Positions 712 to 17,886 of a DNA stretch of 22,261 bases are shown piece after piece (position 1 is the first letter of the stretch; every line of letters starts with the position of its first letter). The position numbers were made by a program, and so were the translations under genes. The notes beneath the pieces were generated by a model. That model was not told the origin of the DNA. It made no database searches and was given only the letters and a program-made list of their open reading frames with translations. This stretch comes from a virus, in IMG/VR virus record IMGVR_UViG_3300035698_008983, positions 1-22,261 of that record. One strand, written 5' to 3'.

Positions 712-1158
712 TTATGCGTTTTTGGCTTTTTCAAATCCCTCTAGTTTTTTCAGATATTCATACGCTACAGCAAAAATACCTTTTCTGTTAATATTCCCAA
801 CTAAAGCAGCAGTTTTCTCAGCTCCGATCTCCTTTGCTTTTTCAGCTATTGCAAAGGCTTTTTTTGTCATTAATAATATGTCTCTATCTTTTTTAGATAG
901 TTTTTCTTTTTTCGCTTCTTTATCTACTATTTTCGTAATAATTGATAAATTGATATCAGACGCAGCCTCAAATTGAGACCGTGACCGCAACATCTTTTCG
1001 TTAATTACATATTCTTCTGTAAATCCTTTGTTCTTTCTATCTTGTGTGGCATATATATCAACCCTGATTCGCAATTGTTTTTTGTCTCTGTGGTATTCAA
1101 CGCTACTTATACGGATGTAAGCCGATGCCAAAAACGAATATTTGTTTAATAATGCCAT
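712..1158 (-). CDS. Hypothetical 148-aa charged protein
   Basis: I do not recognise this family. The ATG at 1158 overlaps the end of the upstream glycosyltransferase gene by 13 bases and has an AAAGGAG ribosome-binding site 7 bases upstream, so translation is well supported. Residues 1-60 look beta-rich (SAYIRISSVEYHRDKKQL, RIRVDIYATQ). Residues 60-148 look helical and are rich in Lys, Glu and Ala (KEAKKEKLSKKDRD, AFAIAEKAKEIGAEK). There is no signal peptide, membrane segment or cysteine pair. It lies between the sugar block and the tail fibre, so it could be a fibre chaperone or an accessory to glycosylation; the sequence does not decide between these. Confidence 0.75.
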   Translation of the reverse strand: MALLNKYSFLASAYIRISSVEYHRDKKQLRIRVDIYATQDRKNKGFTEEYVINEKMLRSRSQFEAASDINLSIITKIVDKEAKKEKLSKKDRDILLMTKKAFAIAEKAKEIGAEKTAALVGNINRKGIFAVAYEYLKKLEGFEKAKNA

Positions 1159-2153
1159 ATTTGATCTCCTTTAATAGTTTTCCAAATTTGATCCTCTTCT
1201 ACATAATCGCATAGTTTAATTTTACCATTGTAATTGAGATCATACCACTCTTTTTGTATGGCTTGCAGCCCCTTTTTAATATTCGGCTCGACTTTTGCCA
1301 TATCATCACGTCCGGCCTCTAACTGCCGATATTTTTTGAGGCATCCATCAACGAAGTTTGACCTCGCTACTCTACCATGTATAATATATATCCTATCACC
1401 AGAAAATGTATGCCAATAACCGCCCTCATCTATGGGATATGTCCAACCCCGCATATTAGTATGATGTACCTGAGCCATTGTTTCCATAGGAAAAGCAATT
1501 ATTTTTTCATTCATTTCCATTTTTTGTATAGCGAGATTCCAACAGAATATGTCACCAATCCCTACTGTTGTATTATTTTTCTCCTGAGTACCGTTCTTTG
1601 CAATATCACAATAACAATCTAATACATCATGCCAATCGGCTTTCATGTCAAAAACCGCAGGAGTATTACAAATAAACTGAAACATCTTACCTGATTTTTC
1701 AAACATTGGTTTTCCGCTTAACTTATAGCCGCCGGTTCCCCATTTAAACCGTTCATTGCACCCTATACAACAGCTTGTTTTTTTTACAAGATCAAAAAGG
1801 CGCATGAATTGATCTGACACAAAAAACATATCACCGTCAAGTAAACATACAACATCATAATCCGTGCCAAGTTCAGCCATTATCTTATAACGAGTCCTTT
1901 TTATGAATTCAATTCGTTTCGTCTCAGGAGGCAAATCAAAATCAGACCGTTTAATTTCAATTGGTATAACTACATAGGATAAATCTCTGGCAATTCGCTG
2001 TAGATATTCTTCATTATATCCATCGTGATGAAGCAAATAAACTGTTAAATCACAATTGCGATACAATTTTCGCTTCTCAATGCTATTTAACAAAGCATTA
2101 ATATATCCTATATAATTAGGCGTTGCCGCTACAAAAATGGCGTATTTATTCAT
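1146..2153 (-). CDS. Glycosyltransferase, GT8-like GT-A fold
   Basis: A 335-aa protein counted from the ATG at 2153, where the Rossmann-like first strand begins (MNKYAIFVAATPNYIGYINA); a longer frame reaches 2207 but adds only a polar extension. The start overlaps the upstream stop by 8 bases. The DGD motif at residues 106-108, inside VVCLLDGDMFF, is the expected metal and nucleotide-sugar site of GT-A transferases. The layout, with early strands, LLHHDGYNEEY, then the DxD and long Trp/His-rich acceptor loops, resembles GT8 and related families. There are no membrane segments, so it should be a soluble cytoplasmic enzyme. Donor and acceptor are unknown. It is the last transferase of the sugar block and could add an outer residue of a virion glycan. 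Confidence 0.75.
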   Translation of the reverse strand: MNKYAIFVAATPNYIGYINALLNSIEKRKLYRNCDLTVYLLHHDGYNEEYLQRIARDLSYVVIPIEIKRSDFDLPPETKRIEFIKRTRYKIMAELGTDYDVVCLLDGDMFFVSDQFMRLFDLVKKTSCCIGCNERFKWGTGGYKLSGKPMFEKSGKMFQFICNTPAVFDMKADWHDVLDCYCDIAKNGTQEKNNTTVGIGDIFCWNLAIQKMEMNEKIIAFPMETMAQVHHTNMRGWTYPIDEGGYWHTFSGDRIYIIHGRVARSNFVDGCLKKYRQLEAGRDDMAKVEPNIKKGLQAIQKEWYDLNYNGKIKLCDYVEEDQIWKTIKGDQIWHY

Positions 2154-2751
2154 GCCCCACAATCCCCTTTCCCCACCCTTCGTTTTTCCATAATCTTTTA
2201 TACCCATGATAAATATATAAATCTTGCATTAAATGCATAGTGTAACCTAGTTCAAACAGCCGGTCGTTGTAATAATTATCCCATCCGATAAATTTATTAT
2301 CCGGCAAGCCAAATTTATTTAACACATCCTCATAGGCTTTTTTGTGGGTAAGGATAAATAGCCCCGATAGTTTCCAGCGCCTGGTTGCTTCGGTGATATC
2401 TTCAACTTTTCCCTTATTTTTCTGATATACGATTTCGGCTAATTCAAAATGCTTATTCATATCATTAGTATCATATTCTTTGCTGAAATTATATGTATAT
2501 TTTTGAATACTATAATCAGCTTTTTGCAATGGACATCCAATCTGATTAGTCACGCAAGTTATCCATCCGGCCTGATGGCCTACTTGACTAATGGCGTTCT
2601 GGCATATCTCATACCAGTGAGGATTAAGGCTTAGAAAAACATCATGGTCAAGAATAAGCACCCAATCACGAACAGTTTTCATTGCCCGATTAATAGCATA
2701 GCCCAACTTTTTCCCTGGCTCCCAGGGTATACGCACATCAATAAATATCAT
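2146..2751 (-). CDS. Glycosyltransferase, small GT2-like GT-A domain
   Basis: A 201-aa protein from the ATG at 2751, which overlaps the upstream stop as ATGA and has AAGG about 8 bases upstream. A TTG at 2769 would add six residues but has weaker support. Residues 1-40 (MIFIDVRIPWEPGKKLGYAI, then WVLILDHDVFL) form a short nucleotide-binding half ending in the DHD motif at residues 35-37. A late segment GWDNYYNDRLFELGY matches the acceptor or general-base region of GT2-like enzymes. The protein is shorter than ordinary GT2 enzymes because the first strand-helix unit is nearly absent, but the key motif is intact, so I read it as a compact enzyme and not a remnant. It is soluble and translationally coupled to both neighbours. 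Confidence 0.72.
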   Translation of the reverse strand: MIFIDVRIPWEPGKKLGYAINRAMKTVRDWVLILDHDVFLSLNPHWYEICQNAISQVGHQAGWITCVTNQIGCPLQKADYSIQKYTYNFSKEYDTNDMNKHFELAEIVYQKNKGKVEDITEATRRWKLSGLFILTHKKAYEDVLNKFGLPDNKFIGWDNYYNDRLFELGYTMHLMQDLYIYHGYKRLWKNEGWGKGIVGHE

Positions 2752-3482
2752 ATCACACACCTTATCCAATCCGGCATTATCTCAATTTTACCTGCCGCCT
2801 TTTTTATTTTTATAAAATTATCATCAAAAGCATCGTCCGTAGTTAATCTATGTTGCCAACCATCAGTATTATTCATATCTCGTTGGCTCCATTTGTATTT
2901 TTTTTCTGTCAAGTATTTTGAATATGCTGTTTTATAATCAATTCGATTCAAATGTATTAGGCATAAATCCGGGTCGCCATTTTTGGCACAGTTATAATCT
3001 GAATACATTTTTTTAATAGGAACACTTGATAAAACAGGCTTATAAAAATTTTTTAGCTTTACCCATTTATTCCGTTGTTCTAACAGCCCCCCTGTAAAAT
3101 CAATCGGCATGTCTTTTGCACAACTTATAACTTCGTAACCTACACTATGTAATATTCTCTTTTTGTTCTTGTTAACATAATCATAAATGTTTGAATATCT
3201 TTTCGTGTTTGGGATTAATATTTCATCTGCGTCTGTGCACATTACATAATCGTAATTCTGCAATAATCTTTCCATCATTTTATATGCTGTTTTTCTAAGC
3301 CATGCATGATCAAAACAATAGTCAGATTCAATCCGCTCTACATTTTTATAGTTGATCTCGTTGTCGCTACCATTGTCGATAATGTAAATATCATGTTCGT
3401 CGAAATGCTTTAAGTAATGTTTATACCATATCGGCAAAAACACATCTTCATTTCTCACAATAGTAAAGGCTGCTATTTTCAT
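2748..3482 (-). CDS. Glycosyltransferase, Glyco_tranf_2_4/GT92-like
   Basis: A 244-aa protein. The ATG at 3482 overlaps the mutase stop by 4 bases (ATGA), with AAGGA 6 bases upstream. The N terminus MKIAAFTIVRNEDVFLPIWY carries the NE motif and the hydrophobic pattern of the Glyco_tranf_2_4 family. IYIIDNGSDNE follows at residues 32-42, and a TDADE metal-binding motif at residues 83-87. These are the standard sites for a metal-dependent GT-A transferase acting on a nucleotide sugar. The C-terminal 100 residues are rich in Lys, Tyr and Trp and would bind the acceptor. The gene directly follows UDP-galactopyranose mutase, which makes it a candidate galactofuranosyltransferase; that link comes from context only. 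Confidence 0.78.
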   Translation of the reverse strand: MKIAAFTIVRNEDVFLPIWYKHYLKHFDEHDIYIIDNGSDNEINYKNVERIESDYCFDHAWLRKTAYKMMERLLQNYDYVMCTDADEILIPNTKRYSNIYDYVNKNKKRILHSVGYEVISCAKDMPIDFTGGLLEQRNKWVKLKNFYKPVLSSVPIKKMYSDYNCAKNGDPDLCLIHLNRIDYKTAYSKYLTEKKYKWSQRDMNNTDGWQHRLTTDDAFDDNFIKIKKAAGKIEIMPDWIRCVI

Positions 3483-4471
3483 TTTACATCCTTAATAATA
3501 TCAAGCGTGGATTTAATAGTTTCATCCATATTCATATATTTATATAATCCATGCCGTCCTATTAATGTAATATCATAATTGCTTAAATGTCTTTTGTAAT
3601 TTTCATAAATAGCTATATTTTCCTCAGTCTCATACGGATAATCGTCGCCGTCTTTTGTTGCAAATTCAGTTGTAACTATCGTGTAATCACTTTTTATATT
3701 ATCAAAATATTTCCATTCCATCGTACGCAAATAAGGAACTCGTTCATCGGCATAATTGATAGAAGCATATCCCTGCATAACTTTTTTTTGATATTGTTTC
3801 GTTTCAAATCTGCATCCCCTATAATCTAATATGCCATATAAAAACCCATAAAAGTTATCAACACGCCCAGAATAAATTAATCTATTTCCAAGCAAATCAT
3901 CCCCATCAATTTCTGTTCCCAATACTGTTTTTATTCGTGTGCTGAATAATAAATTTTTAAAAAAATTAATATAACCCCCATCAGGTAGCCCCTGGTATTT
4001 ATCAGCCCAATAATTATTATCATCGGTTGTTTTAACCGGGATATATTTTAAAACATCAAACGGTGGCTTTTCCCCGAACCATGCTTTTTTGGTATATCCA
4101 GAATAAAATTTATCATATAATTTAATAGTATCTCTACCATCAGGGCACACTTTTTCTATGGTCTTTTTATTTATTGGAAAATCATATAATTCACCTTCGC
4201 TAAATGATTTTACTTGATGATAATATGTTCTCCAATTAGCAAACCTATTTATATAATCCCATATATTTTTGTCGTCTGTGTGGAAAATGTGCGGCCCGTA
4301 TTTATGCACCTCAATATCTCCAACATAGTAACTATAGCAATTTCCACCTATATGTTGTCGCCTATCGACAACAAGGCATTCAGCTCCCCTGTCAGCCAAT
4401 TCCCTAGCCGCCACACATCCAGCAAGTCCGGCGCCGATAATTATATAATCATAATGGCTTAATGCTTGCAA
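3479..4471 (-). CDS. glf: UDP-galactopyranose mutase
   Basis: This FAD enzyme interconverts UDP-galactopyranose and UDP-galactofuranose, the donor for galactofuranose-containing glycans. The 330-aa sequence starts with the dinucleotide-binding motif GAGLAGC (residues 13-19) after YDYIII. The acidic strand end VVDRR lies at 34-38, and HIGGNCYSYY at 40-49. The family signature KYGPHIFHT follows, and YDFPINKKTI further on is also characteristic. Typical bacterial enzymes are about 370-390 aa, so it is somewhat short, but both ends look natural. The start is a TTG at 4471, supported by GGGGAGG 6 bases upstream; it overlaps the radical SAM gene by 23 bases. No separate sugar-nucleotide synthesis genes are visible, so UDP-galactose would come from the host. 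Confidence 0.92.
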   Translation of the reverse strand: MQALSHYDYIIIGAGLAGCVAARELADRGAECLVVDRRQHIGGNCYSYYVGDIEVHKYGPHIFHTDDKNIWDYINRFANWRTYYHQVKSFSEGELYDFPINKKTIEKVCPDGRDTIKLYDKFYSGYTKKAWFGEKPPFDVLKYIPVKTTDDNNYWADKYQGLPDGGYINFFKNLLFSTRIKTVLGTEIDGDDLLGNRLIYSGRVDNFYGFLYGILDYRGCRFETKQYQKKVMQGYASINYADERVPYLRTMEWKYFDNIKSDYTIVTTEFATKDGDDYPYETEENIAIYENYKRHLSNYDITLIGRHGLYKYMNMDETIKSTLDIIKDVK

Positions 4472-5723
4472 TGTCAGCCTCCCCTATTAAATCAAGTATA
4501 GCATTTCTCCATCGTTCATGCGCTTCAGCATCTTCGGCAGATTTAAATTCCCAGTTTTTTGGTTTTCCTATAGTCTGAAATTTACTGAAATCAGTTTTTT
4601 TATCTATTTTATATTTATATTTCTCAGGCCTCCTCCATATATCACAACACGGGTATGGCACAAACGCATGAACACCCCACTTGGTTACATAATCCCGGTT
4701 TCTTTTAATAAAATTTAACGTTGCTTGAAAATCGCTTTCCTCTTCCTGTGGTAATCCAACCATAATTTGAGCACGGGTTTTCATCCCGGATTCATAAGCA
4801 TATCGGATACCTCTTTCCTGCTTCTCTATTGTTATTTCTTTTCTGAGTATGTCAAGAATTTTCTGTGATCCTGATTCAATCCCAAAGCAAATAGACATAC
4901 ACCCTGAATCAGCCATAGTATCACATAGCCTTTGCGTGAGTTGATCAGTGCGTCCTAAGCAATGCCATCGCACATTCTCTTTTTTAAGTTCTCTGCAAAG
5001 CTCTGTAAGCCATGCATGGTCTATTACTATATTGTCATCAACAAAATAGATTCTCGTTGCATTGTATTTTTCCCGAAGCATTCTTATTTCGTCCATAACA
5101 AATTTTATTGTATGCCATCGTGTCGGCCCCTTGAAAGATGTACAATAAGCACAGTGGCCATTGCAGCCCCGTGTTGCCATAATGTTAATCTCCCGCTGTT
5201 CTATTACATCAGGATTCTGCATAAAAGACATTACGTCAGTATTCGATATATAACTTTCCATATCAACAAGATCAAAGGCCGGGAAAGGAAGTTTATTTAT
5301 ATCCTGTATAAAAGCATATTTATATATAGGCTTAGTGATCCCATGCCTCATTATGTCTAATGCCGCATGTTCTCCCTCGCCGCATACAACACAATCAAAA
5401 CCTGCCTTTATCATTTCTGCCGGTAAAGATGTCGCATGTACTCCACCTGCAATAACAGGATGCCCAGTCATTATTTTTTTTACCTTCTCTAAAATTTCAA
5501 GTCCGTATGAATATTGAGGCGTTACCATGCCAATTCCATATACATCGGTTTTTGGTAATTCCCAATTTGTTTTCCATACATCCCCGGTCAAGTCCACAAA
5601 TTTAACTTCAATTTTATTTTGTCTGAGATATGCGGCAAGCGACAACATCCCGAATGGCACATATACCCTATCGGATATAAGCCATTTTGAAGGCGGGTTT
5701 ATTAATGTTATTGATTTATACAT
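4449..5723 (-). CDS. B12-binding-type radical SAM enzyme
   Basis: A 424-aa protein from the ATG at 5723; a TTG at 5753 would add ten residues but lies deeper inside the upstream gene. Residues 1-150 form a B12-binding-like Rossmann domain (ITLINPP at the start, VIAGGVHATSLP near 90-100, then CGEGEHA). The canonical DxHxxG cobalamin motif is not visible, as in many members. The radical SAM cluster motif CxxxCxxC is CNGHCAYC (Cys187, 191, 194), followed by a TIM-barrel sequence with YFVDDNIV and CFGIESGSQKILDILRK. This class does methylations, epimerisations and C-C bond formations on sugars, lipids and peptides. Embedded among glycosyltransferases, it may tailor a sugar or methylate an acceptor. 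The exact reaction cannot be read from sequence. Confidence 0.85.
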   Translation of the reverse strand: MYKSITLINPPSKWLISDRVYVPFGMLSLAAYLRQNKIEVKFVDLTGDVWKTNWELPKTDVYGIGMVTPQYSYGLEILEKVKKIMTGHPVIAGGVHATSLPAEMIKAGFDCVVCGEGEHAALDIMRHGITKPIYKYAFIQDINKLPFPAFDLVDMESYISNTDVMSFMQNPDVIEQREINIMATRGCNGHCAYCTSFKGPTRWHTIKFVMDEIRMLREKYNATRIYFVDDNIVIDHAWLTELCRELKKENVRWHCLGRTDQLTQRLCDTMADSGCMSICFGIESGSQKILDILRKEITIEKQERGIRYAYESGMKTRAQIMVGLPQEEESDFQATLNFIKRNRDYVTKWGVHAFVPYPCCDIWRRPEKYKYKIDKKTDFSKFQTIGKPKNWEFKSAEDAEAHERWRNAILDLIGEADIASIKPL

Positions 5724-6178
5724 TTGTTTTCTAACTTCCCCAAGTCTCTCCAATTCGCATCTTTGTTACTTGGTGTTTTCCAATCCCCATAAAGCACCTC
5801 CAAATAATTTTCTACTTGATTCGGTGCGTTGTATTTCCTTGAATTATATTCGATTATATCATAAGGCTCATGGTATGCTTTAGGTATCAACCACACATCT
5901 AGAAGGATATTATTTTTAAAAAAATGCTGACTATGTGCTTTTCTCCCCAAAGTATATCCACGCTCTAACATTTTAGGCATAATCAATTTTAAATTATCAG
6001 GTTTTATCCAAACATCAATGTCATTATCACCCTCAATATATCCGCCATCCCGATAAAACCCTAAGCAAGTTCCAAAGGCTAACAGGTGTTTAAAATCTAA
6101 AGATAGTACAATGTCGTCCCACTCTTCTAAAATATTATCGGCAACATCTTTGCTGTCATACGGGTCTGTTGTATTCAA
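5708..6178 (-). CDS. LicD-like phosphotransferase (nucleotidyltransferase fold)
   Basis: A 156-aa protein. The diagnostic segment is GTCLGFYRDGGYIEGDNDID (residues 36-55), which matches the LicD/fukutin active site: a G-S/T substrate loop, then the acidic metal-binding DxD-type cluster. YLEVLYGDWKTP near residue 125 is also typical of LicD. Such enzymes transfer phosphorylcholine or another phosphate-linked group from a nucleotide donor to a glycan. The frame begins with TTG at 6178, overlapping the upstream stop by 4 bases; GGAGGG lies about 12 bases upstream, and no ATG precedes the active site. It is at the short end of the family. Its likely job is phospho-decoration of the glycan built by its neighbours; the group transferred is unknown. 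Confidence 0.78.
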   Translation of the reverse strand: MNTTDPYDSKDVADNILEEWDDIVLSLDFKHLLAFGTCLGFYRDGGYIEGDNDIDVWIKPDNLKLIMPKMLERGYTLGRKAHSQHFFKNNILLDVWLIPKAYHEPYDIIEYNSRKYNAPNQVENYLEVLYGDWKTPSNKDANWRDLGKLENKCINQ

Positions 6179-7203
6179 AATTTAAGCATCCCTCCGATAT
6201 AATAATTCATAATTTCCTCAGCTACCTGTCTGGGCTTAGTCATCTGCATACATTTCGGTTTACATCCTACGAGATTTTTACAGCTCTTGTTTTCGTTTGT
6301 TTGAGTAGATTCGTCGTAAGTATTACGGTATCCGTTCTGCCAGCATCCATTATAGCTACAACATTCCATACATCCATTCGTGTCCATATATCTATGATTA
6401 GGGTACATTTCCCAGCGCCGAGGTTCACGCCCGCCAGCAATTACCACACAAGGCTTTTTAAATGCTGCGGCCAAATGCATGTGAAATGTTACATGGCAAA
6501 CAGTCCCGGCGGCATGATACCCAAGCCGAATCATTTGACGCAAGTCAGTTTCACCAACTAAGCTTAACACGTTCTTAAGTTCTGGGTGTGAATGCCCTGC
6601 CGACACTTCGCCCACCTGTACAAATTGGATTGTGTTTTTCAGTAGGTTAACCATTTCCTGCCAATTTTCAAAGCCCCATTGTTTCAATGGGTAATCATCT
6701 TTGTTCCCGGCGTTAATTATCCAGAATGACCCCCTGTATCCAAAAGTTTCTTCTACTTGATTTATCCATCCTTTTTCTTCGTCTGATATGTGCAAGTCAG
6801 GCAATAGAGAATTCTGTTTAATTTTAACGCCAAGTATGTTTTCGAGTTCAATAATATAAGCGTTAGAGAAATGCCGCCCTGACCATCCTGAGTTATCAAC
6901 ATCGGAATAGCCTACATCATAGAACTCAACCCCAGGGGAAGTTTTTTTAAGAGGTGTTAAATGCGGATTGTTTTCGTATATAGCTCCACACGGAGTATGT
7001 ACATCAATCTCCCAATCTGGAAACTGGGTTTTAAGATCCCGGACAGCCCCTGTAAATACAAGTATATCACCTGGAGCTTGCCCTTTGTCTAGTATTATTT
7101 TACGTTTTGAAGAAGGCGGAACTATTTTGCGCTGTTTTTTTATAGTAATATCGTCAATTAATTTATCTCTTTTGCTCTTACTTAAAGCAATTTTCTTTTT
7201 CAT
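6175..7203 (-). CDS. Glycosyltransferase family 9-like protein
   Basis: A 342-aa protein resembling ADP-heptose:LPS heptosyltransferases (GT9, GT-B fold). The N-terminal acceptor-side domain has GDILVFTGAVRDLK (residues 45-58), the classic G-D-x4-T-x4-L pattern, and IYENNPHL. The C-terminal donor domain has WIINAG at 161-166, KQWG at 174-177, LVGETDLRQMI at 215-225 and VTFHMHLAAAFKKPCVVIAG at 238-257. The last 65 residues contain seven cysteines (278, 281, 282, 287, 308, 314, 318), suggesting a metal site or a family-specific cap not present in ordinary LPS heptosyltransferases. The first 30 residues are strongly basic. It is the first gene of the sugar block and could start the glycan or transfer heptose; the donor is not proved. 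Confidence 0.82.
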   Translation of the reverse strand: MKKKIALSKSKRDKLIDDITIKKQRKIVPPSSKRKIILDKGQAPGDILVFTGAVRDLKTQFPDWEIDVHTPCGAIYENNPHLTPLKKTSPGVEFYDVGYSDVDNSGWSGRHFSNAYIIELENILGVKIKQNSLLPDLHISDEEKGWINQVEETFGYRGSFWIINAGNKDDYPLKQWGFENWQEMVNLLKNTIQFVQVGEVSAGHSHPELKNVLSLVGETDLRQMIRLGYHAAGTVCHVTFHMHLAAAFKKPCVVIAGGREPRRWEMYPNHRYMDTNGCMECCSYNGCWQNGYRNTYDESTQTNENKSCKNLVGCKPKCMQMTKPRQVAEEIMNYYIGGMLKF

Positions 7204-7221
7204 ATTACACCCCCGTGTAAT
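7204..7221 (-). promoter_or_regulatory. Hairpin hiding the ribosome-binding site of the sugar block
   Basis: On the mRNA strand, ATTACAC and GTGTAAT form a perfect 7-bp stem around a GGGG loop. The stem touches the start codon of the GT9-like gene, and the only Shine-Dalgarno-like bases (GGGGGTG) lie in the loop and upper stem. No U-run follows on either strand, so it is not an intrinsic terminator. It may restrain translation of the sugar block, or be a protein-binding palindrome. Confidence 0.5.
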
Positions 7222-7332: not shown

Positions 7333-7352
7333 AATAAATCCTTTCGTTAAAT

Positions 7353-10300
7353 TTATGTCATATCTTCTACATCATAGCCTTCACCGTGTGCCGCTCGAAG
7401 ATCATAAGTATCCTGCCAATCATCACGCAATGTCCCGGCATCGTAAGTGTCCTGAACATATAAATCAACTTCTGTTTCCGCTCCATATAATATTACTTGA
7501 ACAGTCACTTTTTCTTTTCCCATTTTTATATTTTGATCTATTTCCTCAATCATACATTCAATTGCAACATCGTTTGTTTGATGAGGCAATTTTAAAAGGA
7601 AATGATGAGTTAAAAACCAATTTTCGCCAAGCTCGTAAGGCACCGAAAACGACACTCTTTTCTTTGGTACAAAAACAACGCCGCTTGGTGTACCGTCTAT
7701 ATTTAATGCACCCATCCACGAAAACCACGTTGAAAGGAACCATACAGCGTCCTCATCTTTTACTATCCAATCGTGATTAACCATATCGTCCGGGGGCGGT
7801 TCGACCTGCCTTGTAGCTTGCCATAATACGTGCGCTCGTGTCCACATCATTTCAGCGTCATCACCGGAAAGGCCTATAACATAATCTGCGTTAAATGTAT
7901 CTTGACCGGCATTGGTTATCTGTATAACCTTTTCGTACCCCCCGGTTGCGTTGTTCTTGCCATACCTAATAAGAGGCTCACAAAATATTCCCTCTGTTAA
8001 TGGATATTTTACTTCGCTAATAGCCCCTTTTATATCTGATAGCTCAATTGTTTCTGTCGGAGTAGTTAAAGATTTATACCCTATATAAGAAACACTTTCT
8101 TTTCCTGTTGCCGGATTTTGATATGAACATAAAAAGAACTGTTTGCATAATGATTCTGCAATTACATCTGTATAAGCTTCCTTCAGTGTTAATATTTGCC
8201 TTGCAGGTCTTATGTCTTTTATTGTTGCCAAGTCCTCATAGTCATATCCCCCTTCAGTTATATCAATGTCAATCAAAGGTACATTTGCATATTCTTTTCC
8301 CCATTCTTTCGTTTCTTCCTGGTCGCTCCAATTTTGTAACCTCATAACATGTTCTAATATGTCAACAGGGTTGTTAATCATAGCACAAGCATTTTTGCGC
8401 CCTACACCTATATTACACGACATTGAAGATGATGAGCTCGACGATGGTGAAGATTGAGAGCTTGACGACGAACTTGACGACTGCGAAGATTGAGAGCTTG
8501 ACGACTGCGAAGATTGAGAGCTTGACGAGGAAGAAGATGAGGAAGATGACGAACTTGATGAGCCTGTAGCCTGCCCCCACTGAGCACCGTACACTCGGCC
8601 TTGAAATGGCAAATATATTGCATCCTTGACAGAAATTGATTTTTTAAATATAGTTGATAATTCATAAAAATCAATATCATGTCTATAGTTAGGTGTCCTA
8701 CAAATATTTTCCCGTATAAAAAATAAACATTTCTTTATTGATTTATAATCATCAATATTTGTAATGTGAGTATATGAATATCTTGTATATCCATATATTT
8801 GCTTCGGTGGGTCTACGTCGTGAAATATATTTTCGTAATAAAAATATTTATTATGTGTTAACGGATCAATCGTACAATAAAAATCGGGTGTGTTTTTTAA
8901 ATGCCCTTTATATATATAGGCCCCAAGTGCTGAATCATAGTCCCACAAATCACTATAATCATTATCTACCAATGTCCCATTATCTTCTAAAATATCATAA
9001 GCACTTCCCATAAATTTCTTGTAACGTAGATATAGTCTGCTATCAGTCCAATTTTCCCAAGCAAGACTAGGCGCCCAGAGAGCACAAGTCAAATGAATAC
9101 CTAAATACAAACTATCAAAATCAAATTTTTTTGGATATTCAGGCAAATCGAAGGTTAATCCCATTCCGTATTTTTGATCCCGTGGGTGCGATTGTAATAA
9201 CAAATTCATACTATATTTTGATGTTATATTTTTATCTGTAATATTATTTTTGCTTCCGCCTTCTGAAAATGTATAACCTGTTAAACCGCCTTCATGCGAA
9301 TAATCTTCCGAAGTTGTTTTTGCATAAAGACCGTCTCTAACTTTTGCCCAATCATCAAAACCAGTCTCCCCAGTTTGGTGCCAGTCGCTTAACTCACCTT
9401 TTAACAATTCAATATTCCTTACAGGCAACACAAGAAAAGAATCCATTTTGTCCGGATCCCCGTTAAACAATTTTACATCGATGTCAATTAAATTGTTTTT
9501 GGCATTGCCTGAATCTTCATAAGCATACTGTGGCAAACGATAAAACTCAAACGGCTTTTCCTCGACTGGCACTGTCTCGGCATCACCGCTCACCTTTACC
9601 TGCTTCGGGCTTTCGTGGGAAAATAGGCTTAATCCTTTTTCTATACGATCCCCATCCTCATTAAGATAATCTTTACATCTCCAAACATCTCCCGCGTATT
9701 GTCTATGTATATTTATAATTTTTATCCAGCTTTGGGCTTTTTCTTTAGCCGTGGCGTTTCCTGCAAGAGTGTCTTCAAAATAATTCCTTATAGTAAACTC
9801 AATTATAGTATCATCGTTAGTTCCACCAACTCTAACCAATGCACTTTCAATTTTCCTGTATTGGCCTTCTCCTGTACCTTCTATAACTTGTATATACTGA
9901 TTTTTAAACCACGGTAAATTAAGAACATGTTCTCCAATCTCTGTTGATCCGTTTTTATGCCAAGACACGCCTAATTTTGGAGAATCAGAAAATTGGATTT
10001 TATACATTATTGGCGGGTCGTCCCCATCATCCCCAACTATTGGAAACGATTTAATTCCAACAATATCATGGGTACAAAACATATCTATAACATTTCCAGT
10101 TGTATCGTCAACTGTTCTCCTTGACGTATTCTCATAAGCTGATTCCTCATTGGCAACTCGCAAAAATTTAGCATATCCATTCCAAATTATATTCCCGCTC
10201 TCATCATACACAGGTTTGTATTCTCCAAATGTAACAGGTGAAATTTTGCCAATAGTGTCACCTGTAGCATAAGGATAATTTTTCTTTGTAATTATTGTTC

Positions 10301-10799
10301 CGAGGTTTGCCTTACGTTTTAGGAGTGCGTTTCTTACAGGGATAGTGTTTATTTTTTCCGTCCATTTCGGTTCTCCACATATCCCCCTGAATTTAATTTC
10401 TCCATCAGCGTAAACTAATGCTCCCCCTACTATTTCAAATTTAATTATATCGCATCGGAGGCCACCAAAATAAATGTCATTATCAGCAAACACCTTATCA
10501 AGTTGTACAAAGACACCGCCCACGCTCAAAGTGTTGGCAACATTTATACTGTTACCGCCAACCCTAGGTGTGTTACCACCACTAGTAAAGTTTGCACTTT
10601 CTTTTATATTATCGAATGGAGAAGGCTTTAATACGCCAGTTTTCCATGTGTATGTTGGGGCGTATCCTGATATATCAGCTTCTATCCACCGAAACACACT
10701 ATACCCCCCACCTATAGCGTACAGCCCTATATCAGAGGCGTTGGCTACCACGGGGGCAGAATCGAGGTATATTCTCGCTGCAAAAATGTATCTAGCCAT
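7353..10799 (-). CDS. Large tail-tip/hub protein with internal serine tract
   Basis: A 1148-aa protein placed where lambda-type phages encode the tail hub or tip (gpJ-like position), after tape measure and distal tail genes. The ATG at 10799 overlaps the upstream stop as TAATG, with AAGGTGAG upstream; a TTG at 10805 is less likely. Residues 1-746 are beta-rich, with repeated phrases such as VRNALLKRKANLGT and YAYEDSGNAKNNLIDIDVKL. Residues 747-792 are 40 Ser, 5 Gln and 1 Pro. Residues 793-1148 resume a folded sequence (VDILEHVMRLQNW, then YELGENWFLTHHFLLKLP, and a C-terminal VQDTYDAGTLRDDW). The tract therefore separates two large regions, so it is either a flexible linker or a surface-exposed modification site. 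No lysozyme or peptidase motif was seen. Function is inferred from position and size. Confidence 0.72.
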   Translation of the reverse strand: MARYIFAARIYLDSAPVVANASDIGLYAIGGGYSVFRWIEADISGYAPTYTWKTGVLKPSPFDNIKESANFTSGGNTPRVGGNSINVANTLSVGGVFVQLDKVFADNDIYFGGLRCDIIKFEIVGGALVYADGEIKFRGICGEPKWTEKINTIPVRNALLKRKANLGTIITKKNYPYATGDTIGKISPVTFGEYKPVYDESGNIIWNGYAKFLRVANEESAYENTSRRTVDDTTGNVIDMFCTHDIVGIKSFPIVGDDGDDPPIMYKIQFSDSPKLGVSWHKNGSTEIGEHVLNLPWFKNQYIQVIEGTGEGQYRKIESALVRVGGTNDDTIIEFTIRNYFEDTLAGNATAKEKAQSWIKIINIHRQYAGDVWRCKDYLNEDGDRIEKGLSLFSHESPKQVKVSGDAETVPVEEKPFEFYRLPQYAYEDSGNAKNNLIDIDVKLFNGDPDKMDSFLVLPVRNIELLKGELSDWHQTGETGFDDWAKVRDGLYAKTTSEDYSHEGGLTGYTFSEGGSKNNITDKNITSKYSMNLLLQSHPRDQKYGMGLTFDLPEYPKKFDFDSLYLGIHLTCALWAPSLAWENWTDSRLYLRYKKFMGSAYDILEDNGTLVDNDYSDLWDYDSALGAYIYKGHLKNTPDFYCTIDPLTHNKYFYYENIFHDVDPPKQIYGYTRYSYTHITNIDDYKSIKKCLFFIRENICRTPNYRHDIDFYELSTIFKKSISVKDAIYLPFQGRVYGAQWGQATGSSSSSSSSSSSSSSSQSSQSSSSQSSQSSSSSSSSQSSPSSSSSSSMSCNIGVGRKNACAMINNPVDILEHVMRLQNWSDQEETKEWGKEYANVPLIDIDITEGGYDYEDLATIKDIRPARQILTLKEAYTDVIAESLCKQFFLCSYQNPATGKESVSYIGYKSLTTPTETIELSDIKGAISEVKYPLTEGIFCEPLIRYGKNNATGGYEKVIQITNAGQDTFNADYVIGLSGDDAEMMWTRAHVLWQATRQVEPPPDDMVNHDWIVKDEDAVWFLSTWFSWMGALNIDGTPSGVVFVPKKRVSFSVPYELGENWFLTHHFLLKLPHQTNDVAIECMIEEIDQNIKMGKEKVTVQVILYGAETEVDLYVQDTYDAGTLRDDWQDTYDLRAAHGEGYDVEDMT
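8424..8561 (-). repeat. Serine tract of the tail hub (46 codons)
   Basis: This region encodes 40 Ser, 5 Gln and 1 Pro using all six serine codons (TCA, TCG, TCT, TCC, AGT, AGC), so it is not a one-codon microsatellite. A 24-bp unit encoding eight Ser/Gln residues is perfectly duplicated in tandem, and a third diverged copy lies on the left. Positions 8467-8558 match the tail-tube tract at 14742-14809 exactly, except for one extra copy of this unit. Confidence 0.9.
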
Positions 10800-11623
10800 T
10801 AACAACTCACCTTATAAAAATTCAAATCAAAATCAAATTCATCATATCTAGGACATTTAATTTTTAGCACTTCGTCAAGCCATTGGCAAACATACGTTCC
10901 GTTACCGTCTCCCTCTTCTCCGAATATATAATTATTATTTTGTGCTATTATATTCAAATTGGTATCTCTTACAGCACTGACTAAATGATCTATTAACGCA
11001 GCCGCTTTATTTTGACTACACACCATAGCTAGTTTCGTTATTAAATAATCCGCATCACTTGTCTTGTCGATTGTGTACGCAGTGCCATCCCGTGTCAACT
11101 GCGTACTGTACCCATAATTAGACACTGGCTCAGGAAAATAAGGCGGATATCTCAAATTTGTTATATTCCCTATTTGCAAATTTCCTTCCGACACCTCGGA
11201 GGGCAAACTATAAACTGGCTTAGACTCTTCAACAAAGTCAATTTCAGTATTGAAATAGAGATACGGTTCATCTTGCGATCCTGTTGGCTTGTTGATAACC
11301 ATACGCACACCAAAATTTCCTTTGTCTCCATGATCCGGCCCAAAGGGAAAAAATCCGCTATTAGTTTTTCCAAGTTTTAGCGTTATAGATACCCCGCGCC
11401 CCTTAGTCGCATCTGAAAAAATACCGAGAAGAGTGTCAGTATCGGCTGCACTTAAAAGCCATGAACATTTGCATTGCCTGCTAACGTTGTCAGCTCCGTC
11501 ATCCCAAATTCCATAACCCCGCGGCATAAGCTCTGTATGAATCAAAGCCAAGTTAATAACAGTTTCATATCCATACTGCGGTGTATTAAGCGTGTAATCA
11601 ACTCCATTTGCACTAATTATCAT
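10799..11623 (-). CDS. Distal tail/tail-tip protein
   Basis: A 274-aa protein between the tape measure and hub genes. The ATG at 11623 overlaps the tape-measure stop as ATGA, with GAGG 7 bases upstream. The N terminus MIISANGVDYTLNTPQYGYE followed by IHTELMPRGYGIWDDGAD reads like the beta-sandwich of distal tail or gpM/L-type proteins. DTLLGIFSDATKGRGVSITL and FGPDHGDKGNFGVRMVI follow. The C-terminal 90 residues include VCQWLDEVLKIKCPRYDEF. It should form the ring that joins the tail tube to the hub. The family is not recognised with certainty; the call relies on gene order, length and beta-rich pattern. Three cysteines lie in the last 35 residues. Confidence 0.6.
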   Translation of the reverse strand: MIISANGVDYTLNTPQYGYETVINLALIHTELMPRGYGIWDDGADNVSRQCKCSWLLSAADTDTLLGIFSDATKGRGVSITLKLGKTNSGFFPFGPDHGDKGNFGVRMVINKPTGSQDEPYLYFNTEIDFVEESKPVYSLPSEVSEGNLQIGNITNLRYPPYFPEPVSNYGYSTQLTRDGTAYTIDKTSDADYLITKLAMVCSQNKAAALIDHLVSAVRDTNLNIIAQNNNYIFGEEGDGNGTYVCQWLDEVLKIKCPRYDEFDFDLNFYKVSC

Positions 11624-13845: not shown

Positions 13846-14691
13846 TTTTGTTTACCTCTTTCAAAGCATCTGCCTTAAACTTCCCCCAGTAATAACTTAA
13901 TAAATCAAACGCAGCAATCAATTTTGTCGGTTGGTAATAACGCCCCCTGCCATCAGGCCATACTATCATATTACTATTTTCGTACGCTAAAAAATATGGC
14001 AGCAAGCCAAACCCCCTGGCAGCAGCACGGGGACATTGCCGCACGGGGATCGACCCACCGCCTTTACAATATATACAAGATTTATCTTGGCCGTTGCAAA
14101 AAACACATTCATCAATTTTCCATAGAATTTTTTTCTTGAACGGCCCTACGCAACCGCGTTGCTTTTTTAAATCCGGCGTACAGTTCTTACAATTAAATAT
14201 TTGTACAAGAACAGTATTCCAAGCAATGTGGGCAGCCGCTATTATTTTTTTACTTCGTCTTCATCCAAATTAAATTGCCCCCAGTACCACTCAAAAAGCC
14301 TACGCTTTAATTCGATAGGCAATAAATCCGCCGGGTTTTCTTTTGGAAATGCTGGTATTTTCTTTTTGCTTACCCAACCGCATAAACCCATATTAAGAAT
14401 AGTATTCATGGATTTCAACTGGTTTTTCATATTATCAGTTGTGTTTGTATAAGATTTAATCCTGTCTACTATGAGCTTTTCCCAGCGTTCCTTTTTCGGT
14501 TTTCTTTTGCCCTTGTATTCCCTTTCCAATTCGGCAGCCGCTTTTTTATAATACGGTTTTAAATCAATATCACTTTCAGCGTCAAACGTTGATATTAAAT
14601 CAATTTCCAAATCTCCAACTGGCGGATGAAAAGAATATATCACACCGTCAATTGGGTTTTTTATCTTTTGATCCCTTGAAATAGGTATCAT
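13829..14691 (-). CDS. Tail assembly chaperone fusion made by -1 frameshift (GT-like)
   Basis: The upstream frame (14691-14242, 149 aa) ends GTA AAA AAA TAA. A -1 slip on the A AAA AAA heptamer at 14251-14245 enters a second frame that is open for 138 codons down to 13829, giving a 287-aa fusion. This matches the G/GT arrangement found between tube and tape-measure genes in many siphoviruses, where the T part carries the tube subunit to the tape measure. The T part begins IIAAAHIAWN and has cysteine pairs CKNC, CVFC and CIYC plus single cysteines, a likely zinc-ribbon. It ends with a conserved-looking LIAAFDLLSYYWGKFKADAL. A GTG at 14044 could start a separate 71-aa product, but it would cut through the Cys region. 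Confidence 0.8.
14242..14691 (-). CDS. Tail assembly chaperone, short form (gpG-like)
   Basis: This is the unshifted product, 149 aa. It starts at the ATG at 14691 with a run of G residues about 5 bases upstream. The sequence is acidic then basic: PVGDLEIDLISTFDAESDID, KKAAAELEREYKGKRKPKKE, then LFEWYWGQFNLDEDEVKK at the end. The length and place between tube and tape measure match lambda gpG. It would coat the tape measure during tail assembly and be absent from the mature virion. Most ribosomes should make this form, with the fusion as a minor product, as in other GT systems. Confidence 0.8.
   Translation of the reverse strand: MIPISRDQKIKNPIDGVIYSFHPPVGDLEIDLISTFDAESDIDLKPYYKKAAAELEREYKGKRKPKKERWEKLIVDRIKSYTNTTDNMKNQLKSMNTILNMGLCGWVSKKKIPAFPKENPADLLPIELKRRLFEWYWGQFNLDEDEVKK
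14245..14251 (-). promoter_or_regulatory. Programmed -1 ribosomal frameshift slippery site
   Basis: The heptamer A AAA AAA is in register with the upstream frame (GTA AAA AAA, then TAA), a perfect X XXY YYZ slip site immediately before the stop. The -1 frame is open across the site and onward to 13829. I see no strong hairpin within 10 bases downstream. A stem pairing GTTCTT with AAGAAC, extended by TACA with TGTA across one bulged base, lies about 40 bases downstream. Confidence 0.8.
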
Positions 14692-14708
14692 AACAACCCC
14701 CCGTGTTA
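14691..14708 (-). promoter_or_regulatory. Small hairpin around the gpG-like ribosome-binding site
   Basis: On the mRNA, TAACA pairs with TGTTA (5 bp) around the loop CGGGGGGT. The G-run is the only Shine-Dalgarno candidate, and the stem includes the A of the start codon. It resembles the hairpin before the sugar block but is weaker, so chance is possible. Confidence 0.3.
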
Positions 14709-14716
14709 ATAGTTAA

Positions 14717-15751
14717 TTATGCTGGAGCGCCCGAACTTGATGACGAACTTGACGACTGCGAAGATTGAGAGCTTGACGAGGAAGAAGATGAGGAAGATGA
14801 CGAACTTGACACTCCGCCTCTCACCCGGATCACAAGGGCGTTCTTATTAATCTGTCCTTCCAAGTCCCAGGTTTCAACTCCATTCTCATCTGACGACGTA
14901 ACTTTCGTAATCTGTGCATTGCTCGCAACTATATTAATCAAAGTTCCCGTTCCCCAGACTATACTCACATCACCCTCACCCAAATCATACTGTTGTGCTT
15001 CCGGGTCAGCGACAGTGGGTTTTTCTTTATAAACTTTGGCCGTAAATTTAATTTTACGACTTGTCACGTTACCTTTACCCACGCCTGAATCATCTGAAGG
15101 CAATGTTGTTGATTCAGTGCCTTGGTTGCCCGTTAACTCAAGGTTAAGGCATCGATAATCGCTGTCACCGTTAATTTCCATTGTAACGCCAGTGAGTCCA
15201 GGAACCGCCGTTGTATTTTTACTTACTGTCGGTTGAGTAGCTATGACAGCTTTTTCATAACGTCCCACTCCAGTAAGCTCAACTTGTGCGACTGTATCTC
15301 CTGAAAAATCAAAATTCATTTTCCAATCAAACTTTACGTTTCCGGCTTTTGTCAATAGACAAGCATTTGCATTCATGTCGCCAGAGTATTCCCACATAGT
15401 ACCATCAGTGTAAACTGTAGAGGATGGCTTGAGAATCCAATACCCGTTATTTTGATCTAGCGAAAATCTTGCGCATCTCATAGCAGTAATCCAATCCGGG
15501 GTTATACCACAATCCGGATCGCCGAACGGCCTTACTTTTGCAATCAATGTTACGTTGCAAGGCTTGCGACCTACGACAGCGGCATCCTGTGTATAACCGC
15601 CCCCGATTGTCTCAATTTCTTTTGTCCTGACATCAGCCTCAATTTTACTCCCCGGTTCAGCTTCAAAAAGATCGCTTGCCACAAGTGAAGTTTCCGGAGT
15701 TCCTTCTGTTCCCTGTAATTTAAAAAGGATTAATCTTAATGCAGATTCCAC
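14717..15751 (-). CDS. Major tail tube protein with C-terminal serine tract
   Basis: A 344-aa protein in the gpV position, directly before the chaperone pair. The start is GTG at 15751 with a consensus AGGAGG 6 bases upstream, the strongest site in the window, as expected for an abundant protein. The N terminus LRLILFKLQGTEGTPETS and the GSKIEADVRTKEIETIGGGY segment are typical of tube proteins. Around 100-200 the sequence is Gly/Asp/Thr-rich beta structure (NVKFDWKMNFDFSGDTVAQVEL). It is longer than lambda gpV (246 aa). Residues 315-340 are 24 Ser and 2 Gln, followed by GAPA. C-terminal extensions of tube proteins generally project outside the tube, so the serine brush would repeat along the whole tail. 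Confidence 0.85.
   Translation of the reverse strand: MESALRLILFKLQGTEGTPETSLVASDLFEAEPGSKIEADVRTKEIETIGGGYTQDAAVVGRKPCNVTLIAKVRPFGDPDCGITPDWITAMRCARFSLDQNNGYWILKPSSTVYTDGTMWEYSGDMNANACLLTKAGNVKFDWKMNFDFSGDTVAQVELTGVGRYEKAVIATQPTVSKNTTAVPGLTGVTMEINGDSDYRCLNLELTGNQGTESTTLPSDDSGVGKGNVTSRKIKFTAKVYKEKPTVADPEAQQYDLGEGDVSIVWGTGTLINIVASNAQITKVTSSDENGVETWDLEGQINKNALVIRVRGGVSSSSSSSSSSSSSSQSSQSSSSSSSSGAPA
14732..14809 (-). repeat. Serine tract of the tail tube (26 codons)
   Basis: Encodes 24 Ser and 2 Gln, with mixed TCN and AGY codons. Positions 14742-14809 (68 bp) are identical to the hub tract at 8467-8558 once one 24-bp duplicate unit of the hub is removed. The identity covers the synonymous positions and stops at the edge of the tract, where the two genes diverge completely. 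Confidence 0.9.
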
Positions 15752-15761
15752 TTTTATCCTC

Positions 15762-16229
15762 CTAACCTAATGAATACGGATTATTGGCATCGATCCGTGA
15801 ACGTACTTCCAATAATACATATATATAAAATTCAACATTATCATCTACCAACTCAAAGGCAGCCCCCGCATCTGTTAATTTTGTTATTTGGGCTAGCGCA
15901 CCCCTGCTTGGGTCTTCCATCACTTTTTTTATAATATCGCCGATAACATTGCGGGTCAAATAAGTAATTTCAGTATTTTCAGTGTTTTTTTCATCGTTTA
16001 CATTAATGTAATATTTTATGCTGTAGCCAAGCAATGTCATAGCTACTTTATACGTTTGTGTTTCAACTTCTATGTACGGCCCGCCTAATTCTACAAATGG
16101 ATATCGATCATCTATAAATGGATATAGCCGTTCGAGCTCAACAGCTTTGGGCACACCACCATAAGTAGACAGTGTTTTCAATACATTTTTAAGATTTTGT
16201 GTTATTCGTGATGCTATTATGTCAGCCAT
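15762..16229 (-). CDS. Tail terminator-like protein
   Basis: A 155-aa protein between the tail-completion protein and the tube protein, which is the usual site of the lambda gpU-type tail terminator. The N terminus ADIIASRITQNLKNVLKTL is helical. A beta-rich core follows (RYPFVELGGPYIEVETQTYK and KVAMTLLGYSIKYYINVND), then a helix TRNVIGDIIKKVMED and the C-terminal strand FYIYVLLEVRSRID. This helix-sheet-helix-sheet layout is what small ring-forming terminators show. It would cap the finished tube and join it to the head. The ATG at 16229 overlaps the upstream gene by 8 bases. Confidence 0.68.
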   Translation of the reverse strand: MADIIASRITQNLKNVLKTLSTYGGVPKAVELERLYPFIDDRYPFVELGGPYIEVETQTYKVAMTLLGYSIKYYINVNDEKNTENTEITYLTRNVIGDIIKKVMEDPSRGALAQITKLTDAGAAFELVDDNVEFYIYVLLEVRSRIDANNPYSLG

Positions 16230-16980
16230 AAGATTTTTCGACTCTCTTTGTTGCTTTGTCTACTGCGGTCTGACCTCTGCGAACCATAGAGCTTTGCATT
16301 TTGTCAAAACGATTATAAAAGTCAAGCCTGCCTGTAAATAATCTCTTAATTCTAATCCCATGTAATCCCATGAAAAGTAATGCCGATTTATTAAACCCAG
16401 TTTTTTTCCACTTTCTTCCACCCTGCATTTTGTTTTTATCAAAATAAAAAACCTTGCCGCCTCTTTTTACTCCAACCAATCGGCCAGCAGATGCTAATTT
16501 TCTGAATATCTTTGATTTTAACCCTGTTCTTACATCGCCAGTTGACCACGGGCCATGCTCTCCTATAGCTGCAAGATTTTTATACATAGGAACAGGCATT
16601 TGACTTCCAGATCGAATCGTTCCGCCGGTCTGTAACATTTCCATTGCACGCTGTAATTGATGTTTTGAGCGCCCAAGTACGCCCATTGTTAATCTGAGAT
16701 TATTAATATTTTTTGCAAATGGGACACTACCACGAAACAAATGAGCTACTTTTCTTGACCATGTTCCTTCACGTTTTTTTAGTTTTCTTGATGCAAGCAT
16801 GTCCCGATAACCATGCCTAGTTTTCCCCCTTGAATCTTTATAATTTTTACTTCCAAGCATATTAGCACGCTCATCAGTAAGCCATCCCCTCAAAGAAAAG
16901 AAAAACGTATTAGGCGCCCTATTTAATGCGCTTACGACTTCCTTGTCGCCTTTTACTCTTCCTTTAATCTCGAACGACAT
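16222..16980 (-). CDS. Tail completion/minor tail protein (gpZ- or gp10-like)
   Basis: A 252-aa, very basic protein rich in Lys, Arg and Gly. It begins MSFEIKGRVKGDKEVVSALN, the typical opening of neck and tail-completion proteins of the HK97 gp10/lambda Z type, which start with a short beta strand and a long helix. Middle segments are LASRKLKKREGTWSRKVAHL and QTGGTIRSGSQMPVPMYKNL; the C terminus is a helix RRGQTAVDKATKRVEKSYG. The ATG overlaps the upstream stop as TAATG. Its likely place is the head-tail interface, where a positive charge can face DNA. The family call is by order and N-terminal pattern, not by a hallmark residue. Confidence 0.62.
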   Translation of the reverse strand: MSFEIKGRVKGDKEVVSALNRAPNTFFFSLRGWLTDERANMLGSKNYKDSRGKTRHGYRDMLASRKLKKREGTWSRKVAHLFRGSVPFAKNINNLRLTMGVLGRSKHQLQRAMEMLQTGGTIRSGSQMPVPMYKNLAAIGEHGPWSTGDVRTGLKSKIFRKLASAGRLVGVKRGGKVFYFDKNKMQGGRKWKKTGFNKSALLFMGLHGIRIKRLFTGRLDFYNRFDKMQSSMVRRGQTAVDKATKRVEKSYG

Positions 16981-17330
16981 TATTTCAGCCCCAATCTTAC
17001 AGCACCGACATCATTTTGTATTATCCCGCCGATCGTAAATGTTCTTTGTAAAGTGTCTCCTATTGCTTTGTATAATTTCACAGTGTCAACATTCACGGTT
17101 ACAGTCCCGACCCCTTTTGTTGCATCAGTAGAAACATCAATCGCAAGATCATATGATCTGCTAGGATTATGCGATCTCTCACTACGGCTTTCAATTTCTT
17201 TTGCCCCATCTCTATACACAATTGCCTTTATTGATTTTGCAACTCCGCCAGACAGTGTATATTCAACAGTTTCCTCAAATCCTACATCAAGGAAAATATC
17301 AGTCATATCATCTTGTAAAGTTAAATCCAT
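16980..17330 (-). CDS. Head-tail joining protein (FII-like neck protein)
   Basis: A 116-aa protein, a length close to lambda gpFII (117 aa). It sits just after the capsid block and before the gpZ-like gene, the FII position. The sequence is mainly beta: DIFLDVGFEETVEYTLSGG, KSIKAIVYRDGAKEIESRSE, YDLAIDVSTDAT, TVTVNVDTVKLYKAIGDTL and FTIGGIIQND. The last phrases (GDTL followed by F-x-I-x-G-I) fit the C-terminal barrel of head-closure proteins. The start ATG at 17330 has AGAGG 4 bases upstream. It follows a strong terminator, so its expression depends on read-through or a nearby promoter that I could not identify. Confidence 0.62.
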   Translation of the reverse strand: MDLTLQDDMTDIFLDVGFEETVEYTLSGGVAKSIKAIVYRDGAKEIESRSERSHNPSRSYDLAIDVSTDATKGVGTVTVNVDTVKLYKAIGDTLQRTFTIGGIIQNDVGAVRLGLK

Positions 17331-17344
17331 CAGTCCTCTTTAAT

Positions 17345-17379
17345 AAAAAAAGGGAAAGGGTTTGGTGTTACCCTCTCCC
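17345..17379 (-). terminator. Intrinsic terminator after the decoration gene
   Basis: On the transcript, GGGAGAGGGT pairs with ACCCTTTCCC (10 bp with one G-U pair) around an 8-base loop and is followed by seven T. It lies between the decoration gene and the tail block. Partial termination here would give more capsid than tail mRNA. Confidence 0.88.
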
Positions 17380-17406
17380 CCTTATATTTATTCCTGTTTC
17401 AGCCAA

Positions 17407-17886
17407 TTACGCCGAGGTAGAACTCGAAGAACTCGAACTCGAAGAACTCGAACTCGAAGAACTCGAACTCGAAGAACTCGATCCAGGTGAATGGGCATCC
17501 GGCCCTTCATTGAGATCAACTTCAACGTGTGTAGCTGTAGTGGCCGCCGCAACTGTACACATACCGACCGCAAAATCTGCAACCTGATTACAAACAGCTT
17601 GGCTACTCGCCGCATTCGCAGACGCATCCCACCAAACCGTTCGGCCTTGAAGAAATGCCACGGCAATCGATTTATCAATATTAATTCTCCCCCGAATCAA
17701 TATTTGACCGATTGCCCCGTCTGCCGTAGCCGTTAACGCCATAACCGCCTGCCGACTTCCAGACGCGGTATGTATCGCAAACATTTCCCCGACCACCACT
17801 GCCGTTCCGGTGTTATTCGTCCACCTTAATTGTACAGCATTCTCAATGTTCATTTTCATTATGCCTTCTCGTGTCGCTATTGTCAT
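17407..17886 (-). CDS. Capsid decoration/fibre protein (DUF2190-like) with serine tail
   Basis: A 159-aa protein immediately after the major capsid gene. The ATG at 17886 has a GAGG site 5 bases upstream. The core RWTNNTGTAVVVGEMFAIHT, IGQILIRGRINIDKS, GRTVWWDASANAA and FAVGMCTVAAATTATHVEVD matches the DUF2190 family of small beta-barrel head proteins that sit on the outside of capsids. Residues 136-156 are 21 consecutive Ser, followed by TSA. This C terminus would be displayed many times on the capsid surface. It is one of three virion proteins in the window with such a tract. The G+C-richer codons fit high expression with the capsid gene. Confidence 0.8.
   Translation of the reverse strand: MTIATREGIMKMNIENAVQLRWTNNTGTAVVVGEMFAIHTASGSRQAVMALTATADGAIGQILIRGRINIDKSIAVAFLQGRTVWWDASANAASSQAVCNQVADFAVGMCTVAAATTATHVEVDLNEGPDAHSPGSSSSSSSSSSSSSSSSSSSSSTSA
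17422..17481 (-). repeat. Four tandem copies of a 15-bp serine-coding unit
   Basis: The unit TCGAGTTCTTCGAGT (five Ser codons) repeats exactly four times, giving 20 of the 21 serines. It differs in sequence from the hub and tube tracts, so this serine tail arose separately. The unit length is a multiple of three, so gain or loss keeps the frame and changes tail length in steps of five residues. Confidence 0.95.

Follow-up and report, generated by a model that had tools for sequence, protein, structure and literature searches.

Why should three virion proteins of one phage carry near-pure runs of serine in a genome that also holds a block of sugar-related genes? The question is raised by an IMG/VR virus record of 22,261 bases (IMGVR_UViG_3300035698_008983), called here in its full length the window, whose main genes all lie on the minus strand. 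An initial annotation had read this combination as a candidate system of virion self-glycosylation, and our survey supports that interpretation, given that tracts and sugar genes are kept together in every long relative of the phage. Furthermore, the pairing of tract and sugar genes recurs in unrelated phages and in some bacteria, and the serine tails are therefore probably sites at which virions are coated with sugars. Overall, we consider it likely that the phage O-glycosylates its own virion on polyserine (polySer) tags, using enzymes that it encodes itself.

Serine tracts and the adjacent sugar block

The tracts lie on one head protein and two tail proteins:

17407..17886, minus strand: decoration (cement) protein, proposed capsid glycan acceptor (PF09956, E 9.6e-9; PHROG 122)
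14717..15751, minus strand: major tail tube protein, proposed tail acceptor (fold of an AlphaFold2 model; no family match)
7353..10805, minus strand: probable tail hub or tail-tip protein, proposed acceptor (assigned only by the gene order tape measure, 274-aa protein, hub)

The counts of 21, 24 and 40 serines given for these proteins in the initial annotation are borne out, and all coordinates hold. The decoration protein ends in 21 uninterrupted serines, the tail tube ends in a 26-residue Ser/Gln tail (24 of them Ser), and the hub holds an internal Ser/Gln/Pro tract of 46 residues (residues 749-794) with 40 serines. Each tract is written in three to six serine codons, and because TCN and AGY codons are mixed within it, an origin by simple trinucleotide slippage was rejected. 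The tube and hub tracts have in common an identical 62-bp block of DNA; shuffles of synonymous codons reach at most 23 bp, which argues that a tract was copied between the two genes. The tract thus behaves as a module that is copied between genes and retained as serine.

The decoration protein passes the Phage_cement_2 family (PF09956) with 36 bits against a cut-off of 24. The structural model of the tail tube aligns to the tail tube of P74-26 with a Z score of 21.2 over 285 residues, to that of T5 with a Z score of 19.7, and to that of SH-Ab15497, the three matches spanning Z scores of about 19 to 21. On the fold of this model, the protein is predicted to be the major tail tube of a siphophage. 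Family searches of the window proteins gave no match for the hub.

On the minus strand the genes run from portal, capsid/protease and decoration protein through head-tail genes to the tail tube, the tape measure, the 274-aa tail protein and the hub. The sugar block comes next and leads to a fibre-like protein:

6175..7203, minus strand: GT9-like glycosyltransferase, proposed key polySer transferase (PF01075, 31.7 bits, cut-off 22)
5708..6178, minus strand: short LicD-like nucleotidyl- or phosphotransferase, variable accessory (PF04991, E 1.7e-6)
4449..5753, minus strand: B12-binding radical SAM enzyme, accessory (PF04055 and PF02310, NCBIfam)
3479..4471, minus strand: UDP-galactopyranose mutase, accessory (PF03275, E 2e-42)
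2748..3482, minus strand: GT2_4-type glycosyltransferase (PF13704, 34.7 bits, cut-off 27.5; common to the relatives L098 and L099)
2146..2769, minus strand: GT207, small GT-A-type glycosyltransferase, core gene (PHROG 26101, E 1.4e-9; in all long relatives)
1146..2207, minus strand: GT353, GT8-like GT-A glycosyltransferase, core gene (invariant DxD, D124 and D126)
712..1158, minus strand: p148, small conserved protein encoded between GT353 and the fibre-like gene (also found in L098 and L099)

All seven sugar-type genes are genuine open frames. Their placement in a single operon, already proposed in the initial annotation, agrees with the overlaps of 4 to 62 bp between each pair of consecutive genes from GT9 to p148 and with the terminator search, which found none on the minus strand between the tail and sugar genes; the sole weak candidate (9461-9437) sits within the hub gene. 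The strongest candidate of the window, a terminator-like stem-loop at 17383-17348 of the minus strand, stands directly past the decoration gene, and it probably separates high-level expression of capsid and decoration genes from the tail operon.

GT353 was placed through its structure and distant sequence matches. Its best PDB sequence match is GlyE (E 1.4e-4), with WbbM and LgtC also matched, and it falls below the cut-off of the GT8 Pfam family (PF01501, 16.6 against 24.3 bits). The AlphaFold2 model (pTM 0.83) has 282 PDB matches at E<=0.001, those listed being GT-A glycosyltransferases. The modelled GT-A fold and the DxD motif together suggest that GT353 belongs among the GT-A/GT8-like transferases. 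The mutase matches TIGR00031 with an E value of 1e-72, yet its 245 bits stay under the cut-off of 304.

Recurrence in relatives and in unrelated genomes

Relatives were gathered by searches with the capsid, portal, tube and transferases, which returned fragments and four independent long relatives: the L006 group (45.6 kb), the L011 group (39.8 kb), L098 (50 kb) and L099 (48 kb). All five long members, the window included, have C-terminal polySer on both decoration protein and tube together with GT9, GT207 and GT353. The transferases stand after the hub in these members, except in L011, where they lie between the tape measure and the tail-tip genes. The hub tract is common to the window, L098 and L099 and is absent from the L006 and L011 groups. 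Two or three paralogues of the decoration protein, mostly tract-bearing, occur in L005, L006 and L098. The short relatives (L004, L005, L007-L009 and L106) have tracts wherever the gene is complete, and their records stop short of the sugar region. Prophages were also sought with the portal in GTDB contigs, where no relative turned up, and in 289 genomes from the phylum to which G110 belongs, which gave only distant portals.

The remainder of the sugar block varies. The mutase was not detected in the long relatives, LicD was found again in L098 and not detected in L099 or the L006 and L011 groups, and other radical SAM or methyltransferase genes take the place of the radical SAM gene of the window. 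Relatives add an FkbM methyltransferase, radical SAM enzymes of other types, class I methyltransferases, a polysaccharide deacetylase and a kinase-like fusion. Since the mutase, LicD and radical SAM genes vary, they are not to be read as core. The initial annotation had the whole gene set build or decorate the glycans; GT9, GT207 and GT353 are the conserved core, and the other three are variable accessories.

Two side observations concern decoration and tail-terminator genes. L122 has three tandem decoration paralogues (L122:10209-11772), two with a polySer tail and a third with none. In L006:16146-19496 and L122:13496-15799, a tail-terminator-like domain is fused to large N-terminal regions, one of the two proteins having 298 serines, and L122 additionally holds a separate, intact terminator gene.

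The conserved GT9 offered a handle that extends beyond this clade. A search that started from distant members of the subfamily collected 31 bacterial and 27 viral loci. An alignment of three members served for the pattern scan; one of nine members, eight of which match PF01075, was too diverse for it. Among 75 proteins the near-invariant positions are D46, K174, R222, E260, C281, C287, W288, C308 and C318. The GD motif (G45-D46) is invariant, and D46, going by WaaC, is presumably the catalytic base. A C-terminal cysteine cluster (CC..CW..C..C) comprises C281, C282, C287, C308 and C318, each conserved in 96-100% of the proteins.

When the GT9 loci were clustered at 70% identity, 16 of the 22 viral clusters had a polySer gene in the flank, at no more than 3 kb in 12 of them, and so did 7 of the 16 bacterial clusters, at no more than 3 kb in 6 of them (Fisher p 9e-12 for the cluster analysis, a guide only, as it disregards shared ancestry); flanks extended to at most about 10 kb, contigs were fragmentary, and open reading frames (ORFs) were picked by length. 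Under an identical filter, 0/53 capsid-matched control loci had a polySer gene, against 25/34 viral GT9 loci counted singly, a redundant set. The enrichment is specific to serine: homopolymers of G, T, A, P, Q and N were found at none of the viral GT9 loci, and those of E at three. A set of 38 more distant capsid relatives gave 37 without a GT9 match and one weak match. The survey of co-occurrence that the initial annotation had suggested has thereby been run, and in phages and bacteria that are not related to one another GT9 goes with polySer genes. A scan in the reverse direction, for TCN tracts in viral contigs, returned mostly acidic stretches on the opposite strand and was hence a poor test; none of its 50 records carried GT9, and the few genuine polySer genes among them show that polySer can occur by itself, with no need of GT9.

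In unrelated GT9 phages the tracts again sit on virion proteins. A C-terminal tract belongs to a tail tube of lambda type in L183 (PF16461, PHROG 158), to a cement protein in L169 (PF09956) and to a head-closure protein in L173 (PHROG 8040), and L105, L164, L168, L171 and L186 encode large proteins that hold hundreds of serines and resemble fibres in position or sequence. Relatives of GT353 accompany GT9 in L105, L168, L169, L173, L175 and L186. Convergent placement of tracts on exposed virion proteins is the expected look of an enzyme-substrate pair.

Several other loci merit separate record. In three Acidobacteria loci (L136:9048-9527, L139:959-1597 and L153:10357-11364), GT9 adjoins a protein resembling twin-arginine lipoproteins with a polySer body; the three proteins share a C-terminal GLLV and may be an unrecognised family of surface proteins. 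Between GT9 and the gene of a phage protein with 669 serines lies a sulfotransferase gene (PF13469; L164:8946-9998), which hints at sulfated glycans. A GT9-methyltransferase domain fusion adjoins a second GT9 gene in phage DNA within the genome of an isolate (L114:1744-3273). One Planctomycetota metagenome-assembled genome (MAG; G105, contigs C20, C74 and C81) has three copies of the GT9 subfamily, with polySer genes near two (L131 and L350) and not near L351.

Weighing the explanations

Several observations weigh against virion self-glycosylation. Under the strict ORF filter, no flanking tract was seen for 6 of the 22 viral and 9 of the 16 bacterial GT9 clusters; in the viral groups L163 and L184, however, a polySer frame is present that the strict gene choice dropped. 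All p-values disregard shared ancestry, and the controls derive from a single capsid search. Homology to GT9, by itself, usually predicts a lipopolysaccharide (LPS) enzyme. The relative L111 has no tracts on decoration protein and tube, and it is unusable either way because its record stops short of the sugar region. Glycan, acceptor and activity are all putative here. Finally, polySer genes occur in phage records without this GT9 (e.g., L243 and L245), so that the enzyme points to the tract and not the tract to the enzyme. The initial annotation had named the frequent keeping of tracts without sugar genes in related phages as a pattern that would speak against it; no close relative with tracts and enough flank lacks the block, and a few unrelated phage records have polySer genes without this GT9.

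The serine tracts could be flexible hydrophilic spacers or brushes comparable to the polyserine linkers of cellulases, with the sugar genes unrelated to them. Bacteria such as Saccharophagus are known to use polySer as a linker, and the L243 tract, on a protein not of virion type and with no GT9 in the record, would suit this explanation. We nevertheless find it rather unlikely, as it leaves unexplained both the repeated adjacency of GT9 and polySer in unrelated phages and bacteria and the enrichment of serine only. That same link also counts against a second possibility, namely that the sugar block acts on the surface of the host, by serotype conversion or superinfection exclusion, and not on the virion. 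GT9, LicD and the UDP-Galf mutase are indeed typical of LPS and capsule pathways. However, the genes lie within the late tail operon, outside any lysogeny region, and no tyrosine integrase was found in six records of the clade. The absence of a flippase or Gtr protein, claimed in the initial annotation, holds among the proteins of the window, which is what the check covered. An action on the host surface thus appears quite improbable.

Shared background offers another explanation, in which tracts and transferases are both common in the phages and genomes of Acidobacteria and of the Planctomycetes-Verrucomicrobia-Chlamydiae (PVC) group and so occur together through a common background. The relatives of GT9 are indeed concentrated in MAGs of Planctomycetota, Verrucomicrobia and Acidobacteria, and capsid, not host phylum, was the basis on which viral control loci were chosen. 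However, random samples from three GT9-bearing bacterial genomes had no polySer gene among 647 (0/360 in a Chitinophagaceae genome and 0/287 in Planctomycetota/Verrucomicrobia samples), and several polySer genes directly adjoin GT9, which makes mere background very improbable. We give hardly any credence to the remaining proposal, that the targets of the transferases are bases of the phage DNA, hypermodified as a defence against restriction. Phage glycosyltransferases often target DNA (PMC12619734). However, the block sits with tail genes, and no thymidylate-synthase-type gene was found in the six clade records of 35-50 kb, which may be incomplete (controls were positive in 9 of 14 genomes); some routes to hypermodification do without such a gene, and the negative is not complete in this respect either.

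Proposed mechanism, known systems and significance

Returning to virion self-glycosylation, the genes suggest a scheme in which serine tracts on exposed ends and loops of the decoration protein, tube and hub would be portable acceptor tags. The GT9-like enzyme, of heptosyltransferase type, would add the first sugars to serines; GT9 enzymes usually use ADP-heptose. The GT-A enzymes GT207 and GT8-like GT353 would then extend the chain, and variable accessories (UDP-Galf mutase, GT2_4, LicD-like, radical SAM, methyltransferases, deacetylase and FkbM) would diversify the glycan. Expression from the late tail operon would time the modification to virion assembly. We infer the modification of serine, the order of the enzymes, the identity of the sugar (perhaps a heptose) and a benefit through shielding or adhesion. 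For an environmental phage, protease shielding, the blocking of non-productive binding, and adhesion are equally possible benefits.

Virion glycosylation of this general kind was reportedly described by Freeman et al. in 2023 for the mycobacteriophages Che8, Corndog and Myrna. The system proposed here is compared with theirs (Che8 gp110, Corndog gp38) at the level of description. It shares with the mycobacteriophage system the presence of phage-encoded glycosyltransferases with structural genes (five lineages here) and, as sites that are so far putative here, the C-termini of head and tail tube proteins. It differs in its proposed acceptors, which are long pure serine tracts, in the head on the decoration protein rather than the major capsid protein and in addition on the hub, and in its enzyme set, which joins GT9, GT-A and GT8-like transferases to radical SAM, LicD and mutase accessories, as read from gene content. 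Three papers that cite this work describe capsid and tail-tube subunits with glycans at their C-termini, attached by phage transferases (PMC12619734, PMC12363180, PMC11600133), and one of them gives shielding from antibodies as the benefit (PMC12363180).

A biochemical parallel is with the protein heptosyltransferases TibC and AAH (bacterial autotransporter heptosyltransferases, BAHT), which modify serines and not threonines and need an iron finger of four cysteines in the C-lobe (PMC4358343). The phage GT9 is likewise of heptosyltransferase type, and BAHT adds many sugars to serines, as is proposed for the phage enzyme. The conserved C-terminal cysteines of the phage GT9 are spaced differently from those of TibC (Cys-339/342/358/370), and its proposed substrates are polySer tails instead of beta-helix autotransporters. 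Membership in BAHT (TIGR04414) was rejected at 13.7 bits against a cut-off of 200, and TibC was not among the PDB sequence matches. By analogy, the phage GT9, though not BAHT by score, may work like BAHT.

Two further systems resemble parts of the proposal. GlyE lengthens the O-glycans of PsrP, a serine-rich protein (PMC12656782); in both cases a serine-rich protein stands beside transferases, with a GT8-like enzyme as glycan extender (GlyE there and, as proposed, GT353 here). The proposed acceptors here are, in contrast, virion proteins, and among the proteins of the window Pfam named neither an accessory Sec component nor a GtfA/GtfB complex, no search aimed at GtfA/GtfB being made; a wall anchor was not seen either. 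The chlorovirus PBCV-1 carries N-glycans on its capsid made by virus-encoded glycosylation (PMC7826918). It resembles the phage in the proposed glycosylation of its own shell, and differs as a eukaryotic virus with N-linked glycans, other enzymes and another acceptor.

We see about an even chance that polySer is a portable glyco-tag in general, the cysteine-rich GT9 subfamily specifically decorating pure serine tracts and tags being added repeatedly to exposed virion and surface proteins, both in unrelated phages of several tail types and in genomes of Planctomycetota, Verrucomicrobia, Acidobacteria, Nitrospira and Bacteroidota. Literature searches that paired polyserine with phages or with glycosyltransferases brought up nothing pertinent, and no description of such a general O-glycosylation system was found. 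In the literature consulted, virion self-glycosylation has been demonstrated mainly in actinobacteriophages, and the finding, if true, would extend it to many unrelated phages. The acceptor would be an unusually simple one, a serine run at the end of a protein, and a signature in sequence (a cysteine-rich GT9 beside polySer tails) would predict glycosylated virions from genomes. It would also account for polyserine proteins that have been a puzzle in little-studied phyla of bacteria.

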